A stretch of 64,000 nt of DNA, from NCBI RefSeq assembly GCF_000165485.1, contig NC_014623.1, positions 7,582,893 to 7,646,892 on the forward strand, read 5' to 3'. Of the stretch, positions 40,649 through 63,862 are shown in pieces. The notes under the pieces were generated by a model, which worked only from the letters and a program-made list of their open reading frames with translations, had not been told where the DNA came from and did no database searches. Made by a program: the position numbers and the translations under genes. This DNA comes from Stigmatella aurantiaca DW4/3-1 (lineage in GTDB: Bacteria > Myxococcota > Myxococcia > Myxococcales > Myxococcaceae). Position 1 is the stretch's first letter. Each line of letters starts with the position of its first letter.

Positions 40649-43438
40649 CTAGTTGCTCCCCAGCTGCTTGAGGGCGAGGCGGACATCCGAGGCGAACTTC
40701 CCGGCGGGCTCCAGGGCAAGGTACTTCTTATACGCCTTCACCGCCTGTGCATTCTGGCTGGTGACCTGGAGCGCCATGCCCAGGGCGAACCAGGCCCGGG
40801 CATTCGTGTCCTTCTCCTTCACCACGTCCTGAAGCAGCCAGACCGCCTCGCGGTAGGCGGAGTCACTGGTACTGCCCATCACCAGCGAGAAGCCCAGCCC
40901 TTCCCGCGCCTCATCCGAGGACGGCTTGAGCTTCAGGGCCTTGCGGAAGCTGCTCGAGGCCGCCTTGTAGCGCCCACTCACGATGGCGGACCTCGCCTGC
41001 CGGATGAAGTCCGAGTAATCGCGCTCGGGATCCGCTGGCTTCGAGGGATCCGCGGGCACCGGCTCGGCCGACTCCGCGTCCTCCCCGGCGGGCGCCTCGG
41101 TGCCCCGCTCCGCGGGCGGAGGATTCTCCGTCGGCGGAGGAGGCGTCGGAGGGGGCGGGGTGGGGGTTCCCACCGGGGGCGGCTTGACCGCGATGGCCGT
41201 GTCCTGGGGAGGCGACTCGGGCCTCTCGGCGGGCGGTGACGGCACCTCCGCGGGTTGGGTCTGCGTGGAGCCCTGCTCGGGCGGCGGCTCGGGGGGCGTC
41301 TCCTTGGAGTTGGAGCCTCCGCTGAGCCCGACCACCGCCGCGGCAATCGCGAGCGCCACGACGCCCACGCCGATGTAGAGCCCCGTGCGCTTGGGCTTGA
41401 CGGCCTGGGAGAGCGCCAGCTCATCCACCCCGCTGTCCTTCTTGGGAGACAGGCGAGGCACTTCCTTGGGAGGCGTCTCCTTCTTGGCCGACGCGGGACG
41501 CGGTTCGGGGCCGGGCTTGAGATCCAGCGTCGGCAGCGAAGCCGTGTCCTCTTTCGCCGAAGGCTTGGAGGAGGCCTTGCCCTCGGACGCCTTGGAGTCG
41601 GATGCCTTGGCGTCGGACGCCTTGGCCTCGGGAGCCTTGGCTGCGGCCGAGGACGGAGGGGCTCCGTGCCCTGGATACGGCGGCAGTGCCAACTGAGGCG
41701 AGACCTCATCCACGCTGATCGGCTCGGCCACGGGCTCGGACTCCGGAGCACTCACCAGCGTTACTTCGGACGAGGGCGGCGCCGGAGTCGGAGGCGGCAC
41801 TGGAGGGACCGGGTTGGGGCCGATGGCGGCCCCTCCGAAGATGGGGGGGCGCGATGCGGCCGCATCCGCATCCCCCGCCCCTGCCGGAGCGGAGGCCACG
41901 GCAGGGGGCTCCGGTGGAGGCTGCGGCGGGGACGCGGCGTGCGCGCTCGGTTGAGCGGGCGGGGCCCCCCGGCCCGGAGACCAGGAGGGGATGGGCGCCC
42001 AGGTGCTCGCCGAGCCCAGGCCATCGGTGTCCACGCGGCTCCAGTCGAGCAACAAGCTGCGCCGCGCGTGCTCCTGAGCACGGTGCTCGGGCGGAGGCTC
42101 CACGAGGAAAGAGGACGGCTCCGCCTTCGACGAGGCAGCAACGGCCGCGGGCTCCGGCTCGGCGGCCCCGCCGGGCCGCTTGGACTTGGGCTGGAAGACG
42201 ACGACGTTCGCGGGCTGGGCCGACGCGGCCGGGGGAACGGCCGGGGGGGCGGCCGCGACCGCCGGGGGCGCCACCGCGGGAATGCTGGGTGGCACGGGCG
42301 CCTCGGCGGCCACAGGCGCCACAGGCGCCACAGGGGTCGGGGCGGCGGCGGGAGGCGGCGGAGGCGGCGGCGCCACGGCCTGGGCAGGGGCCACGGGCTC
42401 CGGTGCAGCGGGGGGCGCCGGAGGCACTGGAGGGGCCACCGCGTGCAGCCACGCCTCGATGCCCGGTTTGCCACTCTGGACGGGCTCCTGCGAGATGTTG
42501 CCCAGCTCGCGAATGAGGCCCTCGAAGTAGAGCTTGCTGATGATGCCCAGCGCGGCCAGGTCCTCGAAGTCCGAGTCCTCCACCACGCGGCTCAGGGTGC
42601 GCTTGCCGTCAAACAACCGCAGCAGGCCGTTCACCTCGTCGGGGATCTCCGACAGGCGCTCGGCGAGTTGGTGGTAGTCGATCTCGAACACCGTCTCGAG
42701 CGGCGGCAGCTGCTCGAGCATGCGGCCCCACTCGTCCAACCGGCGCATGCCCTCCATGAGCAGGCCCTGGGTGGAGACCTCGATGCGCTCGGGCCGGTCC
42801 AGCGGGGTGAACTGCACCTCGAACTGGCCCTCGAAGGTGTTCAGCATCCGGTAGAACGCGTTCTCACCCTTGAGGCGCCCCAGCTCCGCGTCGATGACGC
42901 GGCCCTCCTTGAAGTAGATGGCGCCGATGCGCTCGCCCTGGATGGCGATGGTGCCCGTCTTGCGGCCGATCTCGAACGTCTGGACCAGGTCCACCACGCC
43001 CATGTCGGCCAGGCTGCCGCTGAAGCCGCCCTTGGTGGTCTCCCGCTTTTCGATCCGCTCCTTCTCCGCCTTCTGGAGAATCATCCGGACGCGGGTGACG
43101 ATCTCCTTGATGTAGATCGGCTTCGTCAGGTAGTCGTCGCCGCCCAGCTCCAGACCTCGGACCTTGAACTCGACCGACTTCTGATTGGTGAGGAAGACGA
43201 AGGGGATGAACTTGAAGCGCTCGTCGGACTTGAGCGCCTTGCACAGCTCGAAGCCGTCCATCTCGGGCATCTTCGTATCGGCAAGCACGAGATCCGGCGG
43301 GCTGATCTGAACCTTCTCCAGCGCGTCCTTGCCATGGATGGCGGTCGTGACGGAGAAGCCGGCCTTCTTCAGGCTGACCTCCATCACGCGAAGGCTCTTC
43401 GCGTCACCATCGACCAGGAGCAGGTGCTGCTTGGCCAC
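40649..43438 (-). CDS. Receiver-DUF4388 (PATAN)-TPR membrane protein
   Basis: 929 residues. A receiver domain (1 to about 125) has the phospho-Asp in [13 protein letters not shown], Thr in FLTNQKS and Lys in LTKPI; the acidic pocket is DGD instead of DDD. A DUF4388/PATAN domain follows (about 135-235, [19 protein letters not shown]...[16 protein letters not shown]), then a winged-helix-like segment. A long Pro/Ala-rich region, one membrane helix (about 690) and a C-terminal TPR region (about 780-929) complete it. Receiver-PATAN proteins in myxobacteria and cyanobacteria act in spatial signalling and motility; function here is unknown. GTG start at 43438. Same strand and 153 bases behind the giant LAEEAR gene. 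Confidence 0.85.
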
Positions 43439-43591
43439 GTTCGGTTGCCTTTCGCTGCCAACGGCTCCATGAGAGCCGGGCGCCGAGGAGTGGCGCGATG
43501 ATCGTGCCCGATCTCCAGGCATGTCAATGGTTTGAGCCCCTCCTGACCCCAGTCACTCTGCCCGGCGAACAGGCGGCCGGGCGTCGAATGT

Positions 43592-46500
43592 TCAGCGGAA
43601 GAGCCCCTTCTTGGGCGGCGGGGTATTCTTCTTCCGCATTTCAATCAACCGGAGCTCCTGGTTGGCCTCCAGGTGCTTGGGGTTGGTGCGCACCGCCTCG
43701 CGGAAGTGGCGCTCGGCCCGGTCCATGTCGCCTTCGACCCGGGCGATGACCCCCAATTGATAGTGGGCCCGGTCGCACTGGGGGTCGGCCTGGACGGCAT
43801 CCGCCATCATCTGCTTGGCCTTGGCCACCTCGGCCTTGCGTTGGGGGTCCATGTAGAGGGCCCAGGCCCGCGCGGCCAGGTAGAGGGCCTTCGGGGCCAG
43901 CGCGTAGGCCCGCTCATAGTGCTCGGCCGCCGCCGGGAAGTCCCTCTTGCGGAAGTAGACCTCGCCCATCTTGAACAGGTCGTCCGGGTTGTCGCTGGCG
44001 CCGGAGCGAACCGCGGGAGCAGCCCCCGTGCCCGCGAACTTGGGGGCCGCGGCTTTCGCCTTGAGCCCCTCCACATACGCGGCCCGCTTGGCGTCGTCAT
44101 GCAGCACGTCGTACGCCTCGCGGATGGCCTCGAAGACGGCGGTCATCTTGGGCGCCAGGTGCACCAGAGAGGCCGGCAGCCGGTCCGGGTGGAAGACCTT
44201 CGCCATGCTGAGGAAGGTGGCCTTCACCTGATCCCGAGGGGTGTCCTGGGGGATACCGAGGACGGTGAAGTGGTCGCGCCGGTTCTGCAACTCGGCGTAG
44301 CGCTGTTCGATCTGCTGCGCCAACCCCAACTCCTCGGCGCTCGAGGGGGGGGCCACGGGCTCACTGGCAGCGGGAGACGGGCTCTCGGGGACCGCTCCGG
44401 CTGGAGTGTCGGCCCGGGCGCCCAGCGCCCCCATGTTCTCCATGGCACGGCGCAGCAGGCGCTGGCGCCTCAGCCTGGCCTCGTCGTCCGGATTGGAGGG
44501 ATCTCCCGCCACGTCGTCCTCGTTGAAGTCCCAATCGTCCAGACCGCTCAGGTCATCCTCGATGCCCTGAGCAGATCCAGCCGTGGTGCTCGGCGCAGTC
44601 TGTCCAGTTGCCGTTCCCTTGTCATCAGGAGGCAACAGGAAACCTCCAGGCTCGGACTCGGCCGCCGTCTCGATGACGGCCTCTACCGGGAGTTCGAGCC
44701 CTTGCGCCCCCGCTTCGATCAGGGTCTCCAGGTGGGAGTCCACCTGCTTCAGCGCGGCCTCGAAGGACGAGGAGAAGTCCTCGGGCCCCTCCCCCTGCTC
44801 GAAGGTGACGATGCGCCAGAGGTCATCCTCTCCCGTCCGGGGAAGTCCCCCTCCCGGCTTCGAGGGAGGGGGGGCGGAGGCCAATCTCCCGGCGGCGACC
44901 CGGGGCCCAGGCGCCGGGAGCGCGGAGGGAGCAGGCGGGGCCGACAGGACGGCCGCCGAGGGAGCCGCCTCCTCACCCGGGGGGACCAAGTCGCTCCACA
45001 CATCCTGCTCCAGGTTGACTTCCCCGGAGGCCCCTCCCGCGGAGGGAGACTCCTTCGGAGTCGGCGCGGGGATGGCCTTGACGCCCGTGTGCAGCCCCGG
45101 CTCCTCGACGAGCCAATCTTCGGCGGGAGAGGCCACCAACCGGCGCTGCACCTCTTCCATGTCGTGGAGCAGCTCGTTCTCCGCCCACTGCCGCGCAAGA
45201 CGCAGCGCAGCCTTGTCCTCCTGAGGCAGCACCTCCTGCGGCTGTTCCGAAGCAGGAATGGCATCGGACCAGGAGAAATCGGAGATGGGCTGCGCCTCGA
45301 GTTGCGCAGGGGGGCGCTCGCTCCCGGCCTGAGGCGCCTCCTCGACCAGCAGGAACTCCTCATCGAGCGAAAGCTCCTCGGGCGTCCCCGGCGCGCTTGG
45401 CTCTCCCTGGGGTCCTCCGGCCTGCTGAGCCTCTTCCATCAAGAGACCGGCATCTTCGAGAGCCACCTCCTCGATGAAGCGCCCCTCCTGCTGTTGGGCC
45501 TCCTCCGCGAGGCGTGCCGCCTCAGCCGCCTGGCGGGCTTTTTCCGCCAACCGGGCCTCCTTGGCCCGGCGCCGCTCCTCGAGCCGGGCTTCCTCCTGCA
45601 AGTGTTCGGCCTCGGCGTGGCGCACTTCTTCTGGGGAAGAGGTGGCCTCGGCGAGTTGGCGAGCCTCCGCGGCCAGACGCAGCTCTTCGGCCAACCGCTG
45701 CTCCTCGGCAAGACGCGCCTCCTGAGCAAGCCGAGCCTCTTCCGCGAGACGCGCCTCTTCCGCGAGACGTGCCTCTTCCGCAAGCCGCTGCGCTTCGGCG
45801 AGCTGAGCTTCTCCGGCTCCAGGTACCTGCGGCTCCAGGGAAACAGCGTCCACCTCGAGCGCCTTCTCGTCCCTCGCGAGGGGCGCCATCGCGGCGGCCC
45901 GACGAGCCTTCTCCGCGAGCCGGGCTTCCTTGGCCTTGCGCCGTTCTTCTTCGAGGCGTGATTCCTCGTCCAGCCCCGTTGAGGCGGGTGTCCATGCGCC
46001 CTCGGATTGACGCGCGGCCTCCGCCGCTTGGCGGGCCTCCGCAGCCAGACGCAGCTCTTCGGCCAACCGATCTTCCTCTGCCCGCCGAGCCTCTTCCGCC
46101 AGCCGAGCCTCTTCCGCCAGCCGTGCTTCCTGCGCCAGCCGTTCCTCTTCGGCGCGCCGGACCTCCTCCTCAAGAGCGGCGGCTTCAATGCGACGGGCCT
46201 TCTCTGCCAGCCGCGCCTCCTTGGCCCTGCGCCGTTCCTCTTCGAGACGTGCCTCTTCGGCCTGACGCGCCTCATCCGCCAGCCGGGCTTCTTCCGCGAG
46301 GCGAGCCTCTTCTAGCGAGCGGCGAGTTTCAGCAGCCAGACGCAACTCTTCTGCTCGCCGGACCTCTTCGTCCCGGCGAGCTTCTTCGGCCAGCCGAGCC
46401 TCTTCGGCCAGCCGAGCCTCCTCCGCCAGCTGTCGGGCTTCCTCCGCGAGGCGAGCCTCTTCGGCCAACCGAGCCTCTTCCGCGAGGCGAGTCTCCTCCG

Positions 46501-49015
46501 CCAGCTGTCGGGCTTCCTCCGCGAGGCGAGCCTCTTCGGCCAGCCGAGCCTCTTCCGCGAGGCGGGCCTCCTCCGCGAGGCGGGCCTCCTCCGCGAGGCG
46601 AACCTCTTCGGCCAGCCGCGCCTCCTCCGCCAGCCGAGCCTCTTCCGCGAGGCGGGCCTCCTCCGCCAACTGTCGGGCTTCCTCCACCAACCGCGCCTCT
46701 TCCGCCAGCCGCGCCTCTTCCGCCAGCCGCGCCTCTTCCGCCAGCCGTGCCTCTTCCGCCAGCCGCGCCTCTTCCGCCAGCCGCGCCTCTTCCGCCAGCC
46801 GCGCCTCTTCCGCCAGCCGCGCCTCTTCCGCCAGCCGCGCCTCTTCCGCCAGCCGCGCCTCTTCCGCCAACTGTCGGGCTTCCTCCGCGAGGCGAGCCTC
46901 TTCCGCCAGCCGAGCCTCTTCCGCCAGCAGCGCCTCTTCGGCCAGCCGCGCCTCTTCCGCGAGGCGGGCCTCCTCCGCCAACTGTCGGGCTTCCTCCGCG
47001 AGGCGAACCTCTTCGGCCAGCCGCGCCTCCTCCGCCAGCCGAGCCTCTTCCGCGAGGCGGGCCTCCTCCGCCAACTGTCGGGCTTCCTCCGCGAGGCGAA
47101 CCTCTTCCGCCAGCCGCGCCTCTTCCGCCAGCCGCGCCTCTTCCGCCAGCCGCGCCTCTTCCGCCAGCCGCGCCTCTTCCGCCAGCCGCGCCTCCTCCGC
47201 CAGCTGTCGGGCTTTCTCCGCGAGGCGAGCCTCTTCCGCCAACTGTCGGGCTTCCTCCGCGAGGCGAGCCTCTTCGGCCAGCCGCGCCTCCTCCGCCAGC
47301 CGAGCCTCTTCCGCGAGGCGGGCCTCCTCCGCCAACTGTCGGGCTTCCTCCACCAACCGCGCCTCTTCCGCCAGCCGCGCCTCTTCCGCCAGCCGCGCCT
47401 CTTCCGCCAGCCGCGCCTCTTCCGCCAGCCGCGCCTCTTCCGCTAGCCGAGCCTCCTCCGCCAGCTGTCGGGCTTCCTCCGCGAGGCGAGCCTCTTCGGC
47501 CAGCCGCGCCTCCTCCGCCAGCCGAGCCTCTTCCGCGAGGCGGGCCTCCTCCGCCAACTGTCGGGCTTCCTCCACCAACCGCGCCTCTTCCGCCAGCCGC
47601 GCCTCTTCCGCCAGCCGCGCCTCTTCCGCCAGCCGCGCCTCTTCCGCTAGCCGGGCCTCCTCCGCCAGCCGGGCCTCTTCCGCCAACTGTCGGGCTTCCT
47701 CCGCGAGGCGAGCCTCCTCCGCGAGGCGAGCCTCTTCGGCCAGCCGCGCCTCCTCCGCCAGCCGCGCCTCCTCCGCCAGCCGCGCCTCCTCCGCGAGGCG
47801 AACCTCTTCGGCCAGCCGCGCCTCCTCCGCCAGCCGAGCCTCTTCCGCCAACTGTCGGGCTTCCTCCGCCAGCCGCGCCTCCTCCACCAGCCGCGCCTCC
47901 TCCACCAGCCGCGCCTCCTCCGCCAACTGTCGGGCTTCCTCCGCGAGGCGAGTCTCTTCGGCCAGCTGCGCCTCCTCCGCCAGCCGCGCCTCCTCCGCGA
48001 GGCGAGCCTCTTCGGCCAACCGCGCCTCTTCGGCCAGCCGGGCTTCCTCCGCCAGCCGCGCCTCCTCCGCCAGCCGCGCCTCCTCCGCCAGTTGTCGGGC
48101 TTCCTCCGCCAGCCGAGCCTCTTCCGCGAGGCGAACCTCCTCCGCCAGTCGCGCCTCTTCCTCCGCGAAGCGGGCCTCCTCTGCCAACCGCGCCTCTTCC
48201 GCGAGGCGAGCTTCTTCGGCCAGCCGTCGGGCCTCCTCCGCCAGCCGCGCCTCTTCGGCGAGACGAGCCTCCTCCGCAAGCTGTCGGGCCTCCTCCGCCA
48301 GTCGCGCCTCTTCCGCGAGGCGAGCCTCCTCCGCCAAGCGTGCCTCTTCGGCCAGCCGCGCCTCCTCCAGCCGGGCGCGCTCACGGGCTTCCCACTCCTC
48401 AACGCTCAGGGACTCGACAAGCCCCTCGCGTTCCAAAAGGTGTAGCAACGCCTCCTGGCTTGAAACCGGTGGCTCCAACTGCCGGAACTCCTCGAACGAC
48501 TCCAGAAACGCCCGCTCCTCTTGCCGGGTCAGCCACGGCTCGCATGCCGCCACATCGAGGCACCGGTACACGCGAGAGGGCCCCTTCTCGCCCTGCACCG
48601 ACTCCAAAGCGGCCCGGACCACGCGGGCGCCCGCGATGGGCTGAAACATCTTTTCCACCGAACCCGGCTCGAAGGCGGAGCGCTCGGCGAGCTGGCTCAA
48701 CCGGCGCACGTGCGCGAGCACCTGGTACTCGGTCACCGTGTCCGTGCCCACCCCCAGGGTCTCCAGAAGATCCTCATCAGGCGTTCCCGCCCCACCCCGG
48801 GCCCAGAGCGCATCCAGCGCCTCCGCCCCCATCCGCCCCCCCTGCAACAGCGCCTGCGCCGGGCTCTGAAACCCGAAGCCCAGCCGCGTGCCGACCAGGT
48901 TCCCCTCCTGCAGGAACAGCCGCGACTCCCGCCCTCCCGCGTGGAGCGTGAGCTGACCGGTGGCCCGGGTCTTGTGAGCGGAGTACAGCGCTTCGGCGAC
49001 GAACGAGGGAGACAT
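43592..49015 (-). CDS. Giant LAEEAR-repeat protein with DUF4388-like head, J domain and TPR tail
   Basis: 1807 residues. The N-terminal part (to about 75) resembles DUF4388 (ATGQLTLHAGGRESRLFLQEGN). From about residue 212 to 876 the chain is an almost unbroken array of LAEEAR hexamers with interspersed LAEEARQ heptamers, then degenerate Glu/Arg/Ala repeats to about 1180. An acidic, Pro-rich linker leads to a J domain (about 1570-1640) with HPD in VFHPDRLP, which stimulates Hsp70 ATPase in known relatives, and a TPR tail (about 1660-1790). The repeat is predicted to be one very long helix of some 130 nm if continuous (0.15 nm per residue for about 880 residues). ATG 49015. Related domain set to the next gene downstream. 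Function unknown. Confidence 0.85.
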   Translation of the reverse strand: MSPSFVAEALYSAHKTRATGQLTLHAGGRESRLFLQEGNLVGTRLGFGFQSPAQALLQGGRMGAEALDALWARGGAGTPDEDLLETLGVGTDTVTEYQVLAHVRRLSQLAERSAFEPGSVEKMFQPIAGARVVRAALESVQGEKGPSRVYRCLDVAACEPWLTRQEERAFLESFEEFRQLEPPVSSQEALLHLLEREGLVESLSVEEWEARERARLEEARLAEEARLAEEARLAEEARLAEEARQLAEEARLAEEARLAEEARRLAEEARLAEEARLAEEARFAEEEARLAEEVRLAEEARLAEEARQLAEEARLAEEARLAEEARLAEEARLAEEARLAEEARLAEEAQLAEETRLAEEARQLAEEARLVEEARLVEEARLAEEARQLAEEARLAEEARLAEEVRLAEEARLAEEARLAEEARLAEEARLAEEARLAEEARQLAEEARLAEEARLAEEARLAEEARLAEEARLAEEARLVEEARQLAEEARLAEEARLAEEARLAEEARLAEEARQLAEEARLAEEARLAEEARLAEEARLAEEARLAEEARLVEEARQLAEEARLAEEARLAEEARLAEEARLAEEARQLAEEARLAEKARQLAEEARLAEEARLAEEARLAEEARLAEEARLAEEVRLAEEARQLAEEARLAEEARLAEEARLAEEVRLAEEARQLAEEARLAEEARLAEEALLAEEARLAEEARLAEEARQLAEEARLAEEARLAEEARLAEEARLAEEARLAEEARLAEEARLAEEARLAEEARLAEEARLVEEARQLAEEARLAEEARLAEEARLAEEVRLAEEARLAEEARLAEEARLAEEARLAEEARQLAEETRLAEEARLAEEARLAEEARQLAEEARLAEEARLAEEARRDEEVRRAEELRLAAETRRSLEEARLAEEARLADEARQAEEARLEEERRRAKEARLAEKARRIEAAALEEEVRRAEEERLAQEARLAEEARLAEEARRAEEDRLAEELRLAAEARQAAEAARQSEGAWTPASTGLDEESRLEEERRKAKEARLAEKARRAAAMAPLARDEKALEVDAVSLEPQVPGAGEAQLAEAQRLAEEARLAEEARLAEEARLAQEARLAEEQRLAEELRLAAEARQLAEATSSPEEVRHAEAEHLQEEARLEERRRAKEARLAEKARQAAEAARLAEEAQQQEGRFIEEVALEDAGLLMEEAQQAGGPQGEPSAPGTPEELSLDEEFLLVEEAPQAGSERPPAQLEAQPISDFSWSDAIPASEQPQEVLPQEDKAALRLARQWAENELLHDMEEVQRRLVASPAEDWLVEEPGLHTGVKAIPAPTPKESPSAGGASGEVNLEQDVWSDLVPPGEEAAPSAAVLSAPPAPSALPAPGPRVAAGRLASAPPPSKPGGGLPRTGEDDLWRIVTFEQGEGPEDFSSSFEAALKQVDSHLETLIEAGAQGLELPVEAVIETAAESEPGGFLLPPDDKGTATGQTAPSTTAGSAQGIEDDLSGLDDWDFNEDDVAGDPSNPDDEARLRRQRLLRRAMENMGALGARADTPAGAVPESPSPAASEPVAPPSSAEELGLAQQIEQRYAELQNRRDHFTVLGIPQDTPRDQVKATFLSMAKVFHPDRLPASLVHLAPKMTAVFEAIREAYDVLHDDAKRAAYVEGLKAKAAAPKFAGTGAAPAVRSGASDNPDDLFKMGEVYFRKRDFPAAAEHYERAYALAPKALYLAARAWALYMDPQRKAEVAKAKQMMADAVQADPQCDRAHYQLGVIARVEGDMDRAERHFREAVRTNPKHLEANQELRLIEMRKKNTPPPKKGLFR
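46386..48372 (-). repeat. 18-bp tandem repeat array with 222-bp higher-order period
   Basis: About 110 copies of an 18-bp unit (with some 21-bp units) encoding LAEEAR. Synonymous versions differ: one reads CGGCTGGCGGAAGAGGCG, the other CGCCTCGCGGAGGAGGCC. A marker string beginning TGTCGGGCTTCCTCCACCAA occurs at 46671, 47337 and 47559; the spacings are 666 and 222 bp, that is three times and once 222, showing a longer duplicated block of 74 codons. Confidence 0.9.
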
Positions 49016-49048: not shown

Positions 49049-49552
49049 TCAACTTGTGGGGAACGCTTGTCCGGCCGCCCTCCCCAGCTGGACCTGCCGC
49101 AGGGCCTCGTAGGTGGCGATCCCCACCGAGGTGGAGAGGTTGAGGCTGCGCCGCTCCTCCAGCATGGGAATGGTCACGGACTGCCCGGAGCCTCCGGCCA
49201 TCACCTCGGCGGGCAAGCCCGTCACCTCCGAGCCGAACACCAGGTGGTCCCCCGCCTCGAACCGGGCCGCATAGAGGGAGGTGGGGGCCCGGGCGGAGAA
49301 CAACCACCTCCGGGCGGCCGGAAAGTCCTCCAGGTAGGCTGGATAAGTGGGGTACAGCTTGAGAAAAACCTTGTCCCAGTAGTCCAGACCGGCCCGCTTG
49401 AGGTCCCGGTCCGCGATGGAGAAGCCCAGCGGCTCGATGAGGATGAGCCGGCTGCCCGTCACCGCGCACAGGCGGGCGACGTTGCCCGTGTTGGGCGGAA
49501 TCTGCGGGGACACCAGCACCAGATGCAGCGGCCGCGCCAGGGGCTCAAGCAT
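49049..49552 (-). CDS. trmL: tRNA (cytidine(34)-2'-O)-methyltransferase TrmL
   Basis: 167 residues, the small SPOUT methyltransferase size of TrmL. Motifs: HLVLVSPQIPPNTGNVARLC, LIEPLGFSIADRDLKRAGLDYW, VFGSEVTGLP and IPMLEERRSLNLSTSVGIATYE. TrmL methylates the ribose of the wobble base of leucine tRNAs. ATG 49552; the divergent DUF192 gene starts only 17 bases away, so the promoters must overlap each other's genes. Confidence 0.92.
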   Translation of the reverse strand: MLEPLARPLHLVLVSPQIPPNTGNVARLCAVTGSRLILIEPLGFSIADRDLKRAGLDYWDKVFLKLYPTYPAYLEDFPAARRWLFSARAPTSLYAARFEAGDHLVFGSEVTGLPAEVMAGGSGQSVTIPMLEERRSLNLSTSVGIATYEALRQVQLGRAAGQAFPTS

Positions 49553-51517: not shown

Positions 51518-53782
51518 ATGACATTCAAATCCACTGGAGCGGCCATCTTCATTTTGGCTGCGGTCCTCTTGGCAAATGACTCTTGGGCCGCCACCTATGG
51601 CGTCCAACCCTCGGGCTCATCTGCCATTTTCTACGTCGACACCACCTCGTGGGCAGACCTCCACTACAAGGTCAACAACGGTGCCCAACTCAACGTCCGG
51701 ATGACTGTCACCCAAGGCAGGAATCAATTCACGGTCACGGGCCTGAGCGCTGGCAATACCGTCGACTACTCCTTCACCTACTTGGATCCGGCCTGCAACT
51801 GTGCCCAAGACACGGCCTGGGCTCTGTACACGCATGGCAGCGCCGTCGACGCCGGCACCCCTGACGCCGGCACCCCCGACGCCGGCACCCCTGACGCCGG
51901 CACCCCTGACGCCGGCACCCCTGACGCCGGTCCTCCTCCTGGCAACATCGTGCCCCTGTTCAACAGCAGCACGGCGCTGGAGCCGGCCCTGGTGGAGAAC
52001 ACCGCGGCGGCGTTGATCACCAAGGTGGGCGGCCGGGTGCGTGACCGCCACGCTCGCGAGTCTCAGTTCCAGGCGTATGACCACTACCTGCCGCTGTATT
52101 TCGAGAAGCGGACCTTCTACATCGAGATCGTGGACGAGGTGGCCAAGGGTGGAAACCAGATCAAGGTCAACCTCATCACGACCGCGCCCCACAGCGGCAC
52201 GAACTTCCGCGCGTTCTTCCGCGGAATCAACACGGTGGCCGAGTACTTCCACAACGGTACCTTCACCCAGACCGGCACCAACCAGTACACCGCCAGCGTC
52301 AACTACAACGCCAAGGAAGGCCGGGCCATCCGGGTCGGCGACCGCATGGAGATTGAAGTCGGCGTCTTCCTGACCCAGCCGGTGGAAGGCCGCTTCAACT
52401 ATTACTCCCGCGCATGGCTGTACATGGTCGGCCAGGGCGGCATCGTCCCGTTCGAGGCCTCGGGCGCGCTGCTGGACTCCTTCCCCATGGCGGAGGCGGG
52501 CTGGAGCGGTGGCCGGACCACGCTGAACGCGCCGTACTCGAACGAGCCCGATAACCGCTTCATCCAGATGGCGCTGAACATGTCCCCCCTGAATGCCCAG
52601 ACGTTCGTCGAGGGCCGGCGCATCCACCACACGGACTTCGGGGACGGCAGCCACTCCGAGCCGGGCAACCCCGCGCTCACCGAGCACCAGAACAAGCTCG
52701 GTCCTGACTACGTCTCGCGCTCGTGTGTCTCCTGCCACGTGCAGAACGGACGCGGCCTGCCTCCGGCCACCACCAACACCACGCTGAGCAACTACGTGGT
52801 CAAGGTGGGCACCGCCAACGGCAGCGCGGATGCGAAGATTGGCTTCAAGCTGCAGCCTCGCCGGACCAGCGGCACCCCCGAGTCGGACATCCGCATCTCG
52901 AGCTGGACGACCTCCTCCGGCACGTTCAAGGACGGAACCGGCTACTCGCTGCGCAAGCCGGTCTACAGCTTCCTCAACTACACCCCGACGAACTACTCGG
53001 CGCGCATCACCCCGCAGCTGGTCGGCATGGGCCTGCTGGAGGCCGTGCCTGAGACTGCCATCTCCCAGCTGGCCGATCCGAATGACAGCAACGGCGACGG
53101 CATCTCGGGCCGGCTCCAGACCGTGGTGGATCCGGAGACGCGCGTGACGCGGCTGGGCCGCTTCGGCTGGAAGGCCGGTTCGGCGCGCGTGAAGTTCCAG
53201 ATCGCCGAGGCCTTCAACAGCGACATGGGCGTCACGTCGACGATCTATCCCACCCTGGACTGCGGCTCGCAGCAGACGGGCTGCTCGGGCTCCAGCAACG
53301 AGCTGAACGCTCAGTCCCTGGACAAGATCACCCGCTACGTCGCGCTGCTGGGCGTCCCGGCGCGCCGCGACCTGACCAACGCTCAGGCGCTGCAGGGCGA
53401 GACGCTGTTCAAGAGCGCCGGGTGCGACAAGTGCCACACCCAGACGCTGACCACCAGCGCCTACCACCCGCACACGGAGCTGCGCAGCCAGACGATCCAC
53501 CCGTACACGGACCTGCTGCTGCACGACATGGGCACGGGGCTGGCCGACAACCTCCCCGAGGGCCAGGCCTCGGGCGCGGAGTGGCGCACGCCGCCCCTCT
53601 GGGGCATCGGCCTGACGGCGGGTGTCAGCGGCGGTGAGGCCTACCTGCACGACGGCCGCGCTCGCTCGCTGAGCGAGGCCATCCTCTGGCACGGAGGCGA
53701 GGGTGAGGCCGCCAAGCAGCGGTTCGTCAACATGACCGCCGCCGAGCGCAACGCGCTGCTGGCGTTCTTGAAGTCCCTCTAA
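51518..53782 (+). CDS. Secreted DUF1111 di-heme protein with CBM56-like glucan-binding domain
   Basis: 754 residues. A signal peptide ends near DSWA. Residues about 26-108 resemble carbohydrate-binding module family 56 (WADLHYKVNNGAQLNVRMTV and VTGLSAGNTVDYSFTY), a beta-1,3-glucan binder in known cases. A linker of five DAGTP repeats leads to a large DUF1111 di-heme domain, distantly related to MauG/cytochrome-c-peroxidase. Heme attachment sites are CVSCH (about 403) and CDKCH (about 637), and the end HDGRARSLSEAILWHGGEGE is characteristic. An extracellular redox protein that docks to glucan is inferred. It stands alone after a gene-poor stretch. Confidence 0.85.
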   Translation: MTFKSTGAAIFILAAVLLANDSWAATYGVQPSGSSAIFYVDTTSWADLHYKVNNGAQLNVRMTVTQGRNQFTVTGLSAGNTVDYSFTYLDPACNCAQDTAWALYTHGSAVDAGTPDAGTPDAGTPDAGTPDAGTPDAGPPPGNIVPLFNSSTALEPALVENTAAALITKVGGRVRDRHARESQFQAYDHYLPLYFEKRTFYIEIVDEVAKGGNQIKVNLITTAPHSGTNFRAFFRGINTVAEYFHNGTFTQTGTNQYTASVNYNAKEGRAIRVGDRMEIEVGVFLTQPVEGRFNYYSRAWLYMVGQGGIVPFEASGALLDSFPMAEAGWSGGRTTLNAPYSNEPDNRFIQMALNMSPLNAQTFVEGRRIHHTDFGDGSHSEPGNPALTEHQNKLGPDYVSRSCVSCHVQNGRGLPPATTNTTLSNYVVKVGTANGSADAKIGFKLQPRRTSGTPESDIRISSWTTSSGTFKDGTGYSLRKPVYSFLNYTPTNYSARITPQLVGMGLLEAVPETAISQLADPNDSNGDGISGRLQTVVDPETRVTRLGRFGWKAGSARVKFQIAEAFNSDMGVTSTIYPTLDCGSQQTGCSGSSNELNAQSLDKITRYVALLGVPARRDLTNAQALQGETLFKSAGCDKCHTQTLTTSAYHPHTELRSQTIHPYTDLLLHDMGTGLADNLPEGQASGAEWRTPPLWGIGLTAGVSGGEAYLHDGRARSLSEAILWHGGEGEAAKQRFVNMTAAERNALLAFLKSL
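51848..51922 (+). repeat. Five 15-bp repeats encoding a DAGTP linker
   Basis: Five units of GACGCCGGCACCCCT (one base varies in one unit) encode DAGTP repeats, then a sixth altered unit (DAGPP). It separates the binding module from the heme domain. Confidence 0.9.
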
Positions 53783-61450: not shown

Positions 61451-63862
61451 ATGAATGTAACAAAAGGTGTGGGAGCACTCTTGCTCCTCAGTGGCTTTTT
61501 GCTGGGCACCGCAGGCTGCTCGAACAAGCGCAGCGAATGTGAGCAAGCCAGTCAATGCCCAGGCCAAGACACGGAATGCCAGACACGCACCTGTGATCAA
61601 GGAACCTGCGGCGTCTCGTTCTCGGCCAGAGGCACGCCAGTGGCAGCCCAGTCTCCAGGTGATTGTCAGAAGAACCAGTGCGATGGAGCCGGTGCCCTCG
61701 AGTCTGTTCCCGACGATGGCGATCCGAGCGACGATGGCAATGCCTGTACCGTCGACTCCTGCCATGCCGGGAAGACGGTCCACACCCCCGTCGACGGTTC
61801 CATGCGTGAGCTCCCAACAGAACAGCTCTCCGCCGTGGGGGCCGCTCCGGTCGCCATGGTGGCGGCGGACCTGAATGGGGATGGCCAAACCGATCTCGTG
61901 GCCGCCAACAGCGGCAGCAACAACGTGAGCGTCCTCCTCAACCAAGGTGGCACCTTCTCTCCCGCCACCCACTACTCCGCTGGAACCAGCCCCGCTTCGC
62001 TGGCGGTGGCGGACTTGAACCAGGACGGCAAGCCCGACCTCGCCGTCTCCAATGCCACCAGCGGCGACGTGAGCGTGTTGCTCAACCAAGGCAACGGACG
62101 TTTCACCCCTGCACTTCCCGCCAACGTGGGCGCGAAGCTTGGTTCGGTGGCGGCAGCGGATCTGAACGGGGATGGCAAGCCCGACCTCGCCATTGCCAAC
62201 ACCGGCAGCCGCACGGTGAGCATTCTCCTCAACCAAGGCAGCGGCACCTTCGCCCCGGCAGACTTCTACACCGTGGACGAGGACCCTTCCTCCGTCGCCG
62301 TGGCGGACTTGAACGGGGACGGCAAGCCCGACCTCGTCATTGCCAACACTGGCAGCGCCAGCGTGAGCGTCCTGCTCAACCAGGGGAACGGCACCTTCTC
62401 CGCGGGAGGCCGCGCCAGCACGGGCGCTTTCCCCTCTTCCGTGACGGCGGTGGATCTCAATGGCGACGGGAAACCCGACCTCGCTGTCGCCAACGGCAAC
62501 AGCTACGACGTGAGCGTGCTGATCAACCAAGGGGATGGCACTTTTGCCGTGGCGCACTACGGCGCTGGAGGCGGTCCCTCGGCGGTGGTGGCGGCGGACC
62601 TGAACGGCGATGGACGACCTGATCTCGCCGTCTCAAACAGCAGCAGCGGCAACGTGAGCGTCCTGCTCAACCGGGGGAACGGTTCCTTCGAGAATGCAAT
62701 TCACTACGGCGGTGGAAAGCGCCTCTGTGCGGTGGCTGCATTGGATCTGAATGGCGACGGAAAGCTCGACCTTGCCGCCTTGAGCTTCGCCAGGGGGAGC
62801 GTGAGCACATTTCTCAACCAGGGCGACGGAACTTTCGCCGCGGCAGTCCACCACAGCGTGAAGACAAACCCCCAAGCGCTGGCGGCAACAGACCTGAACC
62901 ATGATGGTCAAATTGATCTTGTCACCGTGAATTACAACCTCTCCAATCTAAGCGTGCTGATGAACCGAGGCCAAGGCTCGTTCGCCCCAGCCATCCAATC
63001 CAAAGTGGGGACGAACCTCACCTCGGTAGCCGCAGCGGACCTGAATGGCGATGGCAGGCCAGACCTCGCCGTCACGAGTGCGCTCAGCGGTACCGTGGAG
63101 GTGCTGCTCAACTACGGCCAAGGCACCTTCGCCGCCGCGGTCCCCTACAACGTGGGGGAATACCCCTCCTCGGTGGTGGCTGCGGAACTCAATGGGGATG
63201 GCAAGCCCGACCTCGCCGTCACCACTCAAGAAAGCCATCACGTGAGTGTGCTCCTCAACCAGGGCACCGGGACCTTCGCCGCCGCAGTCCCCTACGATGT
63301 GGGAGCAGGCCCTAAGGCCGTTACAGCAGCGGACCTGAACGGCGATGGAGTAGCCGACCTTGTTACGGCGAATGACACCAGCGCCACCGTGAGCGTGCTC
63401 CTCAACCAAGGCAACGGGACCTTCGCCGCCGCGGTCCCCTTCAGCGTGGGCCTCCGCCCTTCTTCGGTGACGGCCGCGGATCTGAACGGAGACGGCAAGG
63501 TGGATCTCGCCGTTGCAAACAAAGCCAGCCATGACGTGAGCGTGTTGCTCAATCAGGACCGCGCGGCCTTCGCGCCAGCGGTCCATTACCAGGCCGGGAC
63601 AGAGCCCCAAGGGGTGACGGCAGCGGATTTGAATGGGGACGGCAAACCCGATCTCGCCGTCGCGAATTGGACCAGCGGCGAAGTGAGCCTGCTGCTCAAC
63701 CAGGGCGATGGGACCTTCACCGCCACAGCCGGGTACAGCGTGGGAATGGATTCCAACGCGGTGACGGCAGCGGACCTGAACGGCGATGGAAAAGCCGACC
63801 TGGCCGTCACACACCAATACAGTTCCACCGTGAGCGTGCTGCTCAGCACCTGCTTGCCCTGA
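61451..63862 (+). CDS. FG-GAP/VCBS-repeat lipoprotein with Cys-rich head
   Basis: 803 residues. The leader ends with lipobox GTAGC. The first 90 mature residues hold about ten Cys in a C-x(n)-C pattern (SECEQASQCPGQDTECQTRT), common in myxobacterial surface lipoproteins. Then come 14 repeats of roughly 46 residues, each with a DLNGDGKPDL calcium-binding loop and VSVLLNQG, which should form seven-bladed beta-propeller(s) of the integrin type. A surface adhesion or ligand-binding role is inferred. ATG 61451. Divergent from the small Cys-rich gene. Confidence 0.88.
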   Translation: MNVTKGVGALLLLSGFLLGTAGCSNKRSECEQASQCPGQDTECQTRTCDQGTCGVSFSARGTPVAAQSPGDCQKNQCDGAGALESVPDDGDPSDDGNACTVDSCHAGKTVHTPVDGSMRELPTEQLSAVGAAPVAMVAADLNGDGQTDLVAANSGSNNVSVLLNQGGTFSPATHYSAGTSPASLAVADLNQDGKPDLAVSNATSGDVSVLLNQGNGRFTPALPANVGAKLGSVAAADLNGDGKPDLAIANTGSRTVSILLNQGSGTFAPADFYTVDEDPSSVAVADLNGDGKPDLVIANTGSASVSVLLNQGNGTFSAGGRASTGAFPSSVTAVDLNGDGKPDLAVANGNSYDVSVLINQGDGTFAVAHYGAGGGPSAVVAADLNGDGRPDLAVSNSSSGNVSVLLNRGNGSFENAIHYGGGKRLCAVAALDLNGDGKLDLAALSFARGSVSTFLNQGDGTFAAAVHHSVKTNPQALAATDLNHDGQIDLVTVNYNLSNLSVLMNRGQGSFAPAIQSKVGTNLTSVAAADLNGDGRPDLAVTSALSGTVEVLLNYGQGTFAAAVPYNVGEYPSSVVAAELNGDGKPDLAVTTQESHHVSVLLNQGTGTFAAAVPYDVGAGPKAVTAADLNGDGVADLVTANDTSATVSVLLNQGNGTFAAAVPFSVGLRPSSVTAADLNGDGKVDLAVANKASHDVSVLLNQDRAAFAPAVHYQAGTEPQGVTAADLNGDGKPDLAVANWTSGEVSLLLNQGDGTFTATAGYSVGMDSNAVTAADLNGDGKADLAVTHQYSSTVSVLLSTCLP
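61850..63850 (+). repeat. 14 DNA repeats of about 138 bp coding FG-GAP units
   Basis: The core string GACCTGAACGG(G/C)GA(T/C)GG recurs about every 138 bp, 14 times, with several neighbouring units closely similar at DNA level. Two complete seven-bladed propellers would use all 14. Confidence 0.8.

Follow-up and report, generated by a model that had tools for sequence, protein, structure and literature searches.

Gene Content of the Locus

The window analysed here is a stretch of 64,000 nucleotides from Stigmatella aurantiaca DW4/3-1, whose genome forms one contig of 10,260,756 bases. On its minus strand, an open reading frame (ORF) at 43592-49015 encodes a protein of 1807 aa, and the ORF list confirms exactly the strand and coordinates given in the initial annotation. 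This gene, hereafter the array gene, and its immediate surroundings comprise the following features (all coordinates refer to the window):

43592..49015, minus strand: array gene, 1807 aa, with a DUF4388-type head, a long repeat helix, an acidic linker, a J domain and TPRs (ORF, Pfam domains, orthologs)
48404..49015, minus strand: N-terminal head of DUF4388/PATAN type, residues 1-204 (sub-threshold in Pfam; 5e-13 in an Anaeromyxobacter-type ortholog; AF2)
46376..48370, minus strand: near-perfect LAEEAR hexad array, residues 216-880 (TRF, unit count, pN/pS, AF2 helix from residue 205)
45476..46375, minus strand: array continuing in degraded form, residues 881-1180 (tokenised sequence)
44276..45475, minus strand: linker, acidic and largely disordered, residues 1181-1580; carries the conserved short motifs DLWRIV and SFEAAL (alignment A2; AF2 pLDDT mostly <50)
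44420..44491, minus strand: conserved helix RRQRLLRRAMENMG ahead of the J domain, residues 1509-1532, also in Anaeromyxobacter-type orthologs (alignment A2, AF2)
44075..44275, minus strand: J domain with invariant HPD, residues 1581-1647 (Pfam DnaJ, alignment A2, AF2)
43625..43987, minus strand: C-terminal TPR solenoid, residues 1677-1797 (Pfam TPR_1 4.9e-12, AF2, Foldseek)
40649..43522, minus strand: neighbouring gene for a protein with receiver, DUF4388, Pro-rich, transmembrane (TM) and TPR parts, candidate partner (Pfam, synteny)
49049..49552, minus strand: upstream gene for a SpoU-type (TrmL-like) RNA methyltransferase, separated from the array gene by 33 bases (Pfam, conserved synteny; no functional link claimed)

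Domain Architecture of the Array Protein

The order of head, helix, J domain and TPRs proposed from the sequence is supported by Pfam, by the presence of the HPD motif and by the location of the TPRs, C-terminal to the J domain. The J domain (PF00226) scores 45.2 bits against a family cut-off of 27.8 (E 1e-11; 2.4e-10 for DnaJ on the whole protein), and both it and the TPRs are significant in Pfam, which bears out their assignment. The HPD (H219 P220 D221 in alignment A2) is invariant in 14 orthologs and is also found in L115-L118. The Pfam scan of the array protein lists no DnaJ_C domain or zinc finger, in keeping with class C. In the AF2 model the pLDDT is approximately 90 for the J domain and 97 for the TPR part, the latter being closest by Foldseek to the TPR domains of SGT, RPAP3 and CHIP among others, a generic match. 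Against DUF4388 (PF14332) the head scores 20.8 bits (E 0.0004), below the cut-off of 25. Nevertheless, the label is right by homology, because a short syntenic ortholog (L115) lacking the array matches the same family above cut-off, at 49.6 bits (5e-13); we call such array-less orthologs Anaeromyxobacter-type, after their presumed genus. The head is modelled as a beta-sheet plus helices at low confidence (overall pLDDT 67), and a fold search with this low-confidence model gave no significant PDB match (none below E 0.4). The linker ahead of the J domain, with a pLDDT below 50 over most of its length, contains invariant short motifs that are possible docking sites. No signal or TM segment is evident in the array protein sequence.

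J-domain proteins of class C with TPRs, such as DNAJC3 and DNAJC7, share with the array protein an HPD-containing J domain and a TPR solenoid without DnaJ_C, whereas the array protein has the order J domain then TPR, a DUF4388 head and a giant helical spacer. Its domain content makes it a probable J-domain co-chaperone, that is, a helper of an Hsp70 chaperone, which it would be expected to stimulate. The group to which Myxococcus xanthus belongs has several DnaK paralogs, and of the 15 J-domain proteins (JDPs) counted in M. xanthus six were caught with DnaK1 or DnaK2 (PMC11019930), so that non-canonical JDPs can bind DnaK there; this does not imply that the ortholog of the array gene is among them.

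Our literature search found no published study of the array gene, in agreement with the initial annotation, to which no described protein of this layout was known. A ruler or tether ending in an Hsp70-recruiting domain had also been called unusual there. The layout is not unique to this protein, being shared across the order and present, minus the array, in a paralog elsewhere in the genome. This paralog (L078, G000:C1:2053500-2065500) combines DUF4388, a Pro/Ala linker, a J domain and TPR; its uncharacterised N-terminal segment looks GYF-like by eye, and relatives at approximately 30% identity recur across the order.

A Repeat Array under Purifying Selection

Near-perfect hexads cover residues 216-880 (665 aa) and include 97 exact LAEEAR units, followed by approximately 300 aa of degraded array up to about residue 1180. 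The earlier description of about 880 near-perfect residues was thus an overcount. About 17 units carry one extra residue (QLAEEAR), leaving the phase of the array imperfect. With a TRF score of 1855 and recurrence in dozens of other species, the LAEEAR array is far beyond chance. The 97 exact units are written in 37 different 18-base DNA spellings, and a comparison of 106 units yields pS 0.585 and pN 0.028 (pN/pS 0.048). Judged by this low ratio, the units are under strong purifying selection, the amino-acid unit being kept while codons drift. In composition the array is 49% charged and half Leu/Ala, with a K:R ratio of 1:107. A PDB sequence search with the array returned no match, a search of its own genome found no second LAEEAR array, and a literature search on the peptide LAEEAR brought up nothing relevant. 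Pfam matches to Plasmodium_HRP and LED_rpt within the array were set aside as composition matches.

Distribution and History of the Helix

Orthologs were detected in 68 of 78 relatives at E 1e-20, a count that includes a weaker paralog. The array gene occurs in nearly every Myxococcaceae genome searched, with full-length syntenic orthologs throughout the family, including M. xanthus AM003 (L089) and some 15 single-contig genomes. The gene order TrmL, array gene, receiver-DUF4388-TM-TPR gene, TsaD is conserved across Myxococcaceae, and most of it is also kept in Anaeromyxobacter-type genomes. On a wider scale, the head family matched 110 of 195 genomes of the phylum, and among the matches listed all belong to the window's order. 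A record titled Comamonas sp. KCTC 72670 (BNCN01000011.1, L095) shows a Myxococcus-type locus in full synteny and is probably mislabelled.

The initial annotation had named assembly error as a possible refutation. Repeats do cause trouble in this gene, many short-read contigs of other species stopping inside it, as expected of a repeat. However, the single-contig genomes carry intact arrays, and it is because these complete genomes are independent that an assembly or sequencing artefact is refuted; together with the conserved locus and the variety of DNA spellings, they leave it a negligible probability. In Corallococcus sp. AS-1-6 (L082) a frame shift near the array end splits the gene, through either an assembly error or a real frameshift.

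The ortholog search and comparison of repeat lengths suggested at the outset reveal a widespread array of very variable size, as well as forms without it. The Anaeromyxobacter-type orthologs (564-765 aa) consist of the head, the conserved RRQRLL-AM-NMG helix, the J domain and TPR; they keep the domains but lack the array, which indicates that the helix was added as a spacer. Within the window's own family, 39-169 aa of charged helix are present in some smaller genomes. In most Myxococcaceae, array length ranges from 469 to 1261 aa in complete genomes (2.7-fold) and up to 1414 aa in a draft (3-fold overall). Most genera have a dominant period of 6, but it is 8 in L131 and L133, 13 in L128, 17 in L135 and 19 in L067, while L134 mixes 6 with 19. 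Different repeat units have thus apparently expanded at the same place in different genera (L128, L131, L133, L134, L135, L067), and the conserved feature is the predicted long Glu/Arg/Ala helix rather than the hexad itself. In a genome from another family of the order (L075, G047:C57), a heptad-type coiled coil replaces the hexad array at the same locus; the 5' end of this gene lies off the contig and part of it reads N.

Isolated Helix or Associated Helices

A single helix rather than a classic coiled coil had been favoured initially, on the grounds of how Leu is spread and of Glu-Arg pairs at i to i+3 and i+4. Both points hold. In a perfect hexad repeat, the hydrophobic moment at 100 degrees sums to zero over each stretch of 18 residues, and the moments measured for LAEEAR arrays at 3.5-3.67 residues do not exceed about 0.03. 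The array core contains zero hydrophobic seam triples, and 98% of its Arg residues have Glu at both -3 and +4. Such an E-R-E network has been described for single helices, the one in the array being one of two arrangements reported (PMC5347031). The unweighted density of opposite-charge pairs is 0.27 of that of EEEEKKK, near the Waggawagga default cut-off of 0.25, although the Waggawagga weights were not reproduced in this value. AF2 continues the helix straight out of the head from residue 205 (pLDDT 88-96), residues 205-261 being modelled as plain helix, a monomer prediction that does not bear on helix association.

Whether the array could nonetheless be an ordinary dimeric or trimeric coiled coil has to be considered given the heptad-type seam at the same syntenic place in L075. 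There the a/d seam lies above shuffled sequence (z +6.9), whereas in six LAEEAR arrays it is depleted below it (z -2.0 to -5.8), and the arrays repeat with periods of 6, 8, 13, 17 or 19 by genus but never with a heptad period of 7 or with 11. The absence of these periods combined with the depleted seams speaks for an isolated helix and against an ordinary coiled coil, which we regard as improbable. More weight is due to a third arrangement, in which helices associate sideways through three Leu/Ala faces and Arg-Glu pairs into a bundle or filament scaffold of cytoskeletal type, concentrating the J/TPR ends. The array has three equivalent faces per 18 residues, and it departs from the textbook single alpha-helix in being half Leu/Ala and in using Arg with almost no Lys. 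Published de novo designs that were Arg-only or Ala-diluted aggregated or multimerised (PMC5347031), and even-numbered motifs are said to aggregate, if at all, in stacks (PMC5812594). This atypical composition and the behaviour of those designs are the reason for entertaining lateral self-association. On the other hand, 885 residues carry a strongly negative net charge (-124), face geometry differs in genera with a period of 8, 13, 17 or 19, and extra residues break the phase in the window protein (it is coherent in other species). These points count against such a scaffold, which we consider unlikely, if clearly less so than a coiled coil. The isolated helix, presumably monomeric, is the reading retained below.

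Several known systems resemble this helix in part. TolA domain II is an Ala/Glu-rich helical spacer between two folded domains of a periplasmic, membrane-anchored protein; it and similar spacers share this role with the array, which is three or more times longer and belongs to a protein without an evident signal or TM segment. Single alpha-helix (SAH, ER/K) spacers, for example in myosin VI, INCENP and AEEEXXX designs (PMC5347031, PMC5812594, PMC4571873), are likewise long charged helices without a seam and with dense i/i+3 and i/i+4 Glu-Arg pairs. The array differs from them in being 3-6 times longer (40-200 residues being typical), in its hexad instead of a heptad-like repeat, and in its composition. 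A six-residue periodicity is also common to alpha/beta coiled coils, where hexads form beta-layers in homotrimers and whose authors found no natural run of hexad-spaced beta-layers (PMC4786415); in contrast, the modelled start of the array is plain helix in the monomer prediction.

Tether, Ruler or Idle Linker

The rise of an alpha-helix is 0.15 nm per residue, which gives the perfect part of the array a contour length of about 100 nm and residues 216-1180 (965 residues) one of about 145 nm. The persistence length of such helices is around 15 nm (PMC5347031). The 965 residues therefore correspond to some ten persistence lengths, with a worm-like-chain root-mean-square span of about 60 nm for the 145 nm contour. 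This flexibility and the variable length of the array argue against a rigid ruler and for a semi-flexible tether. Neither the rigidity nor the ruler function envisaged in the initial annotation is consequently supported, in view of the published persistence length and of the length spread between complete genomes.

The same spread invites the suggestion that array length is without function, the array being an elongated linker, with replication slippage lengthening it and selection only removing helix-breaking or aggregating units. Orthologs with 0-169 aa exist, and even very close proteins differ in array length by a median of 7%. Against this, nearly all Myxococcaceae genera retain long arrays, with units that differ by genus; purifying selection on the unit is strong; and length follows phylogeny loosely (Spearman 0.53 for distance versus length ratio, the pairs not being independent). 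Indels between close species are unsuited to a test of stabilising selection on length, as repeat alignment gives spurious compensating indels. On balance we consider an idle linker unlikely, slightly more so than the lateral scaffold, and continue with a tether.

A Candidate Partner and a Model for the Array Protein

At almost every orthologous locus, the array gene adjoins the apparently uncharacterised receiver-DUF4388-Pro-rich-TM-TPR gene. Over its first 310 residues, the product of this neighbour shows 79-100% identity within the family, a higher conservation than that of the array protein. The neighbour is also present in nearly all genomes that have a strong ortholog of the array gene, and genomes without one of the two are usually without the other, the exceptions (G030, G009, G010) being fragmented assemblies. 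By synteny and the shared domain, the neighbour is a candidate anchor or docking partner of the head. DUF4388/PATAN proteins include cyanobacterial PATAN-CheY regulators, which bind PilB (PMC10519157, PMC7690835); the array protein belongs to their head family by homology, via the Anaeromyxobacter-type orthologs, but has no receiver domain (the receiver is on the neighbour) and shows no sign of pilus involvement. A type IV pilus link through PATAN-PilB was rejected, as the occurrence of PilB does not follow that of the array: in G012, PilB goes together with a short array.

As the best fit, with a probability of roughly 0.45, we put forward that the array protein is a cytoplasmic J-domain co-chaperone built on a long, isolated, semi-flexible alpha-helix, with an anchored head and distant recruitment of DnaK. 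The DUF4388/PATAN-type head would bind a partner, for which the membrane-anchored receiver-DUF4388-TPR product of the neighbouring gene is the most plausible candidate; the Glu/Arg/Ala/Leu helix, emerging straight from the head, would serve as spacer; and the J domain and TPRs at the C-terminal end would recruit and trigger DnaK on a client no more than tens of nanometres from the anchor. The domains, the continuity of the helix, the selection on its units, the missing coiled-coil seam, the synteny and the history of an added spacer are the parts of this model read from sequence. Its docking partner, client, Hsp70 stimulation and monomeric state are parts that we infer.

More tentatively still, the orthologous proteins may constitute a bacterial family of chaperone recruiters whose isolated helix of 450-1260 residues, rebuilt per genus from different non-heptad units, is kept by selection and tethers an anchoring head to an Hsp70-activating end. 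If so, chaperone action would be spatially programmed within the bacterial cell, a J domain on a long tether meaning Hsp70 activity positioned away from its anchor. Among regular helices predicted in bacterial proteins the array is one of the longest and, if monomeric in cells, it would be several times the length of the single alpha-helices commonly reported. The natural arrays of varied length and period offer a test set for what keeps long helices straight and soluble, and the presence of the protein in M. xanthus makes it testable in a standard laboratory organism.

Three further features of the window deserve mention. A Pro-rich antisense ORF of 1145 aa (45514-48951, plus strand) runs through the array and is most likely a by-product of repeat codon use (Leu as CTG/CTC). 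In the protein encoded at 51518-53782 (plus strand), a short Asp-Ala-Gly-Thr-Pro repeat links a CBM56 carbohydrate-binding module to a di-haem oxidoreductase (DHOR). Finally, an FG-GAP repeat protein is encoded at 61451-63862 (plus strand), with a tandem DNA repeat of 147 bases at 61904-62484.
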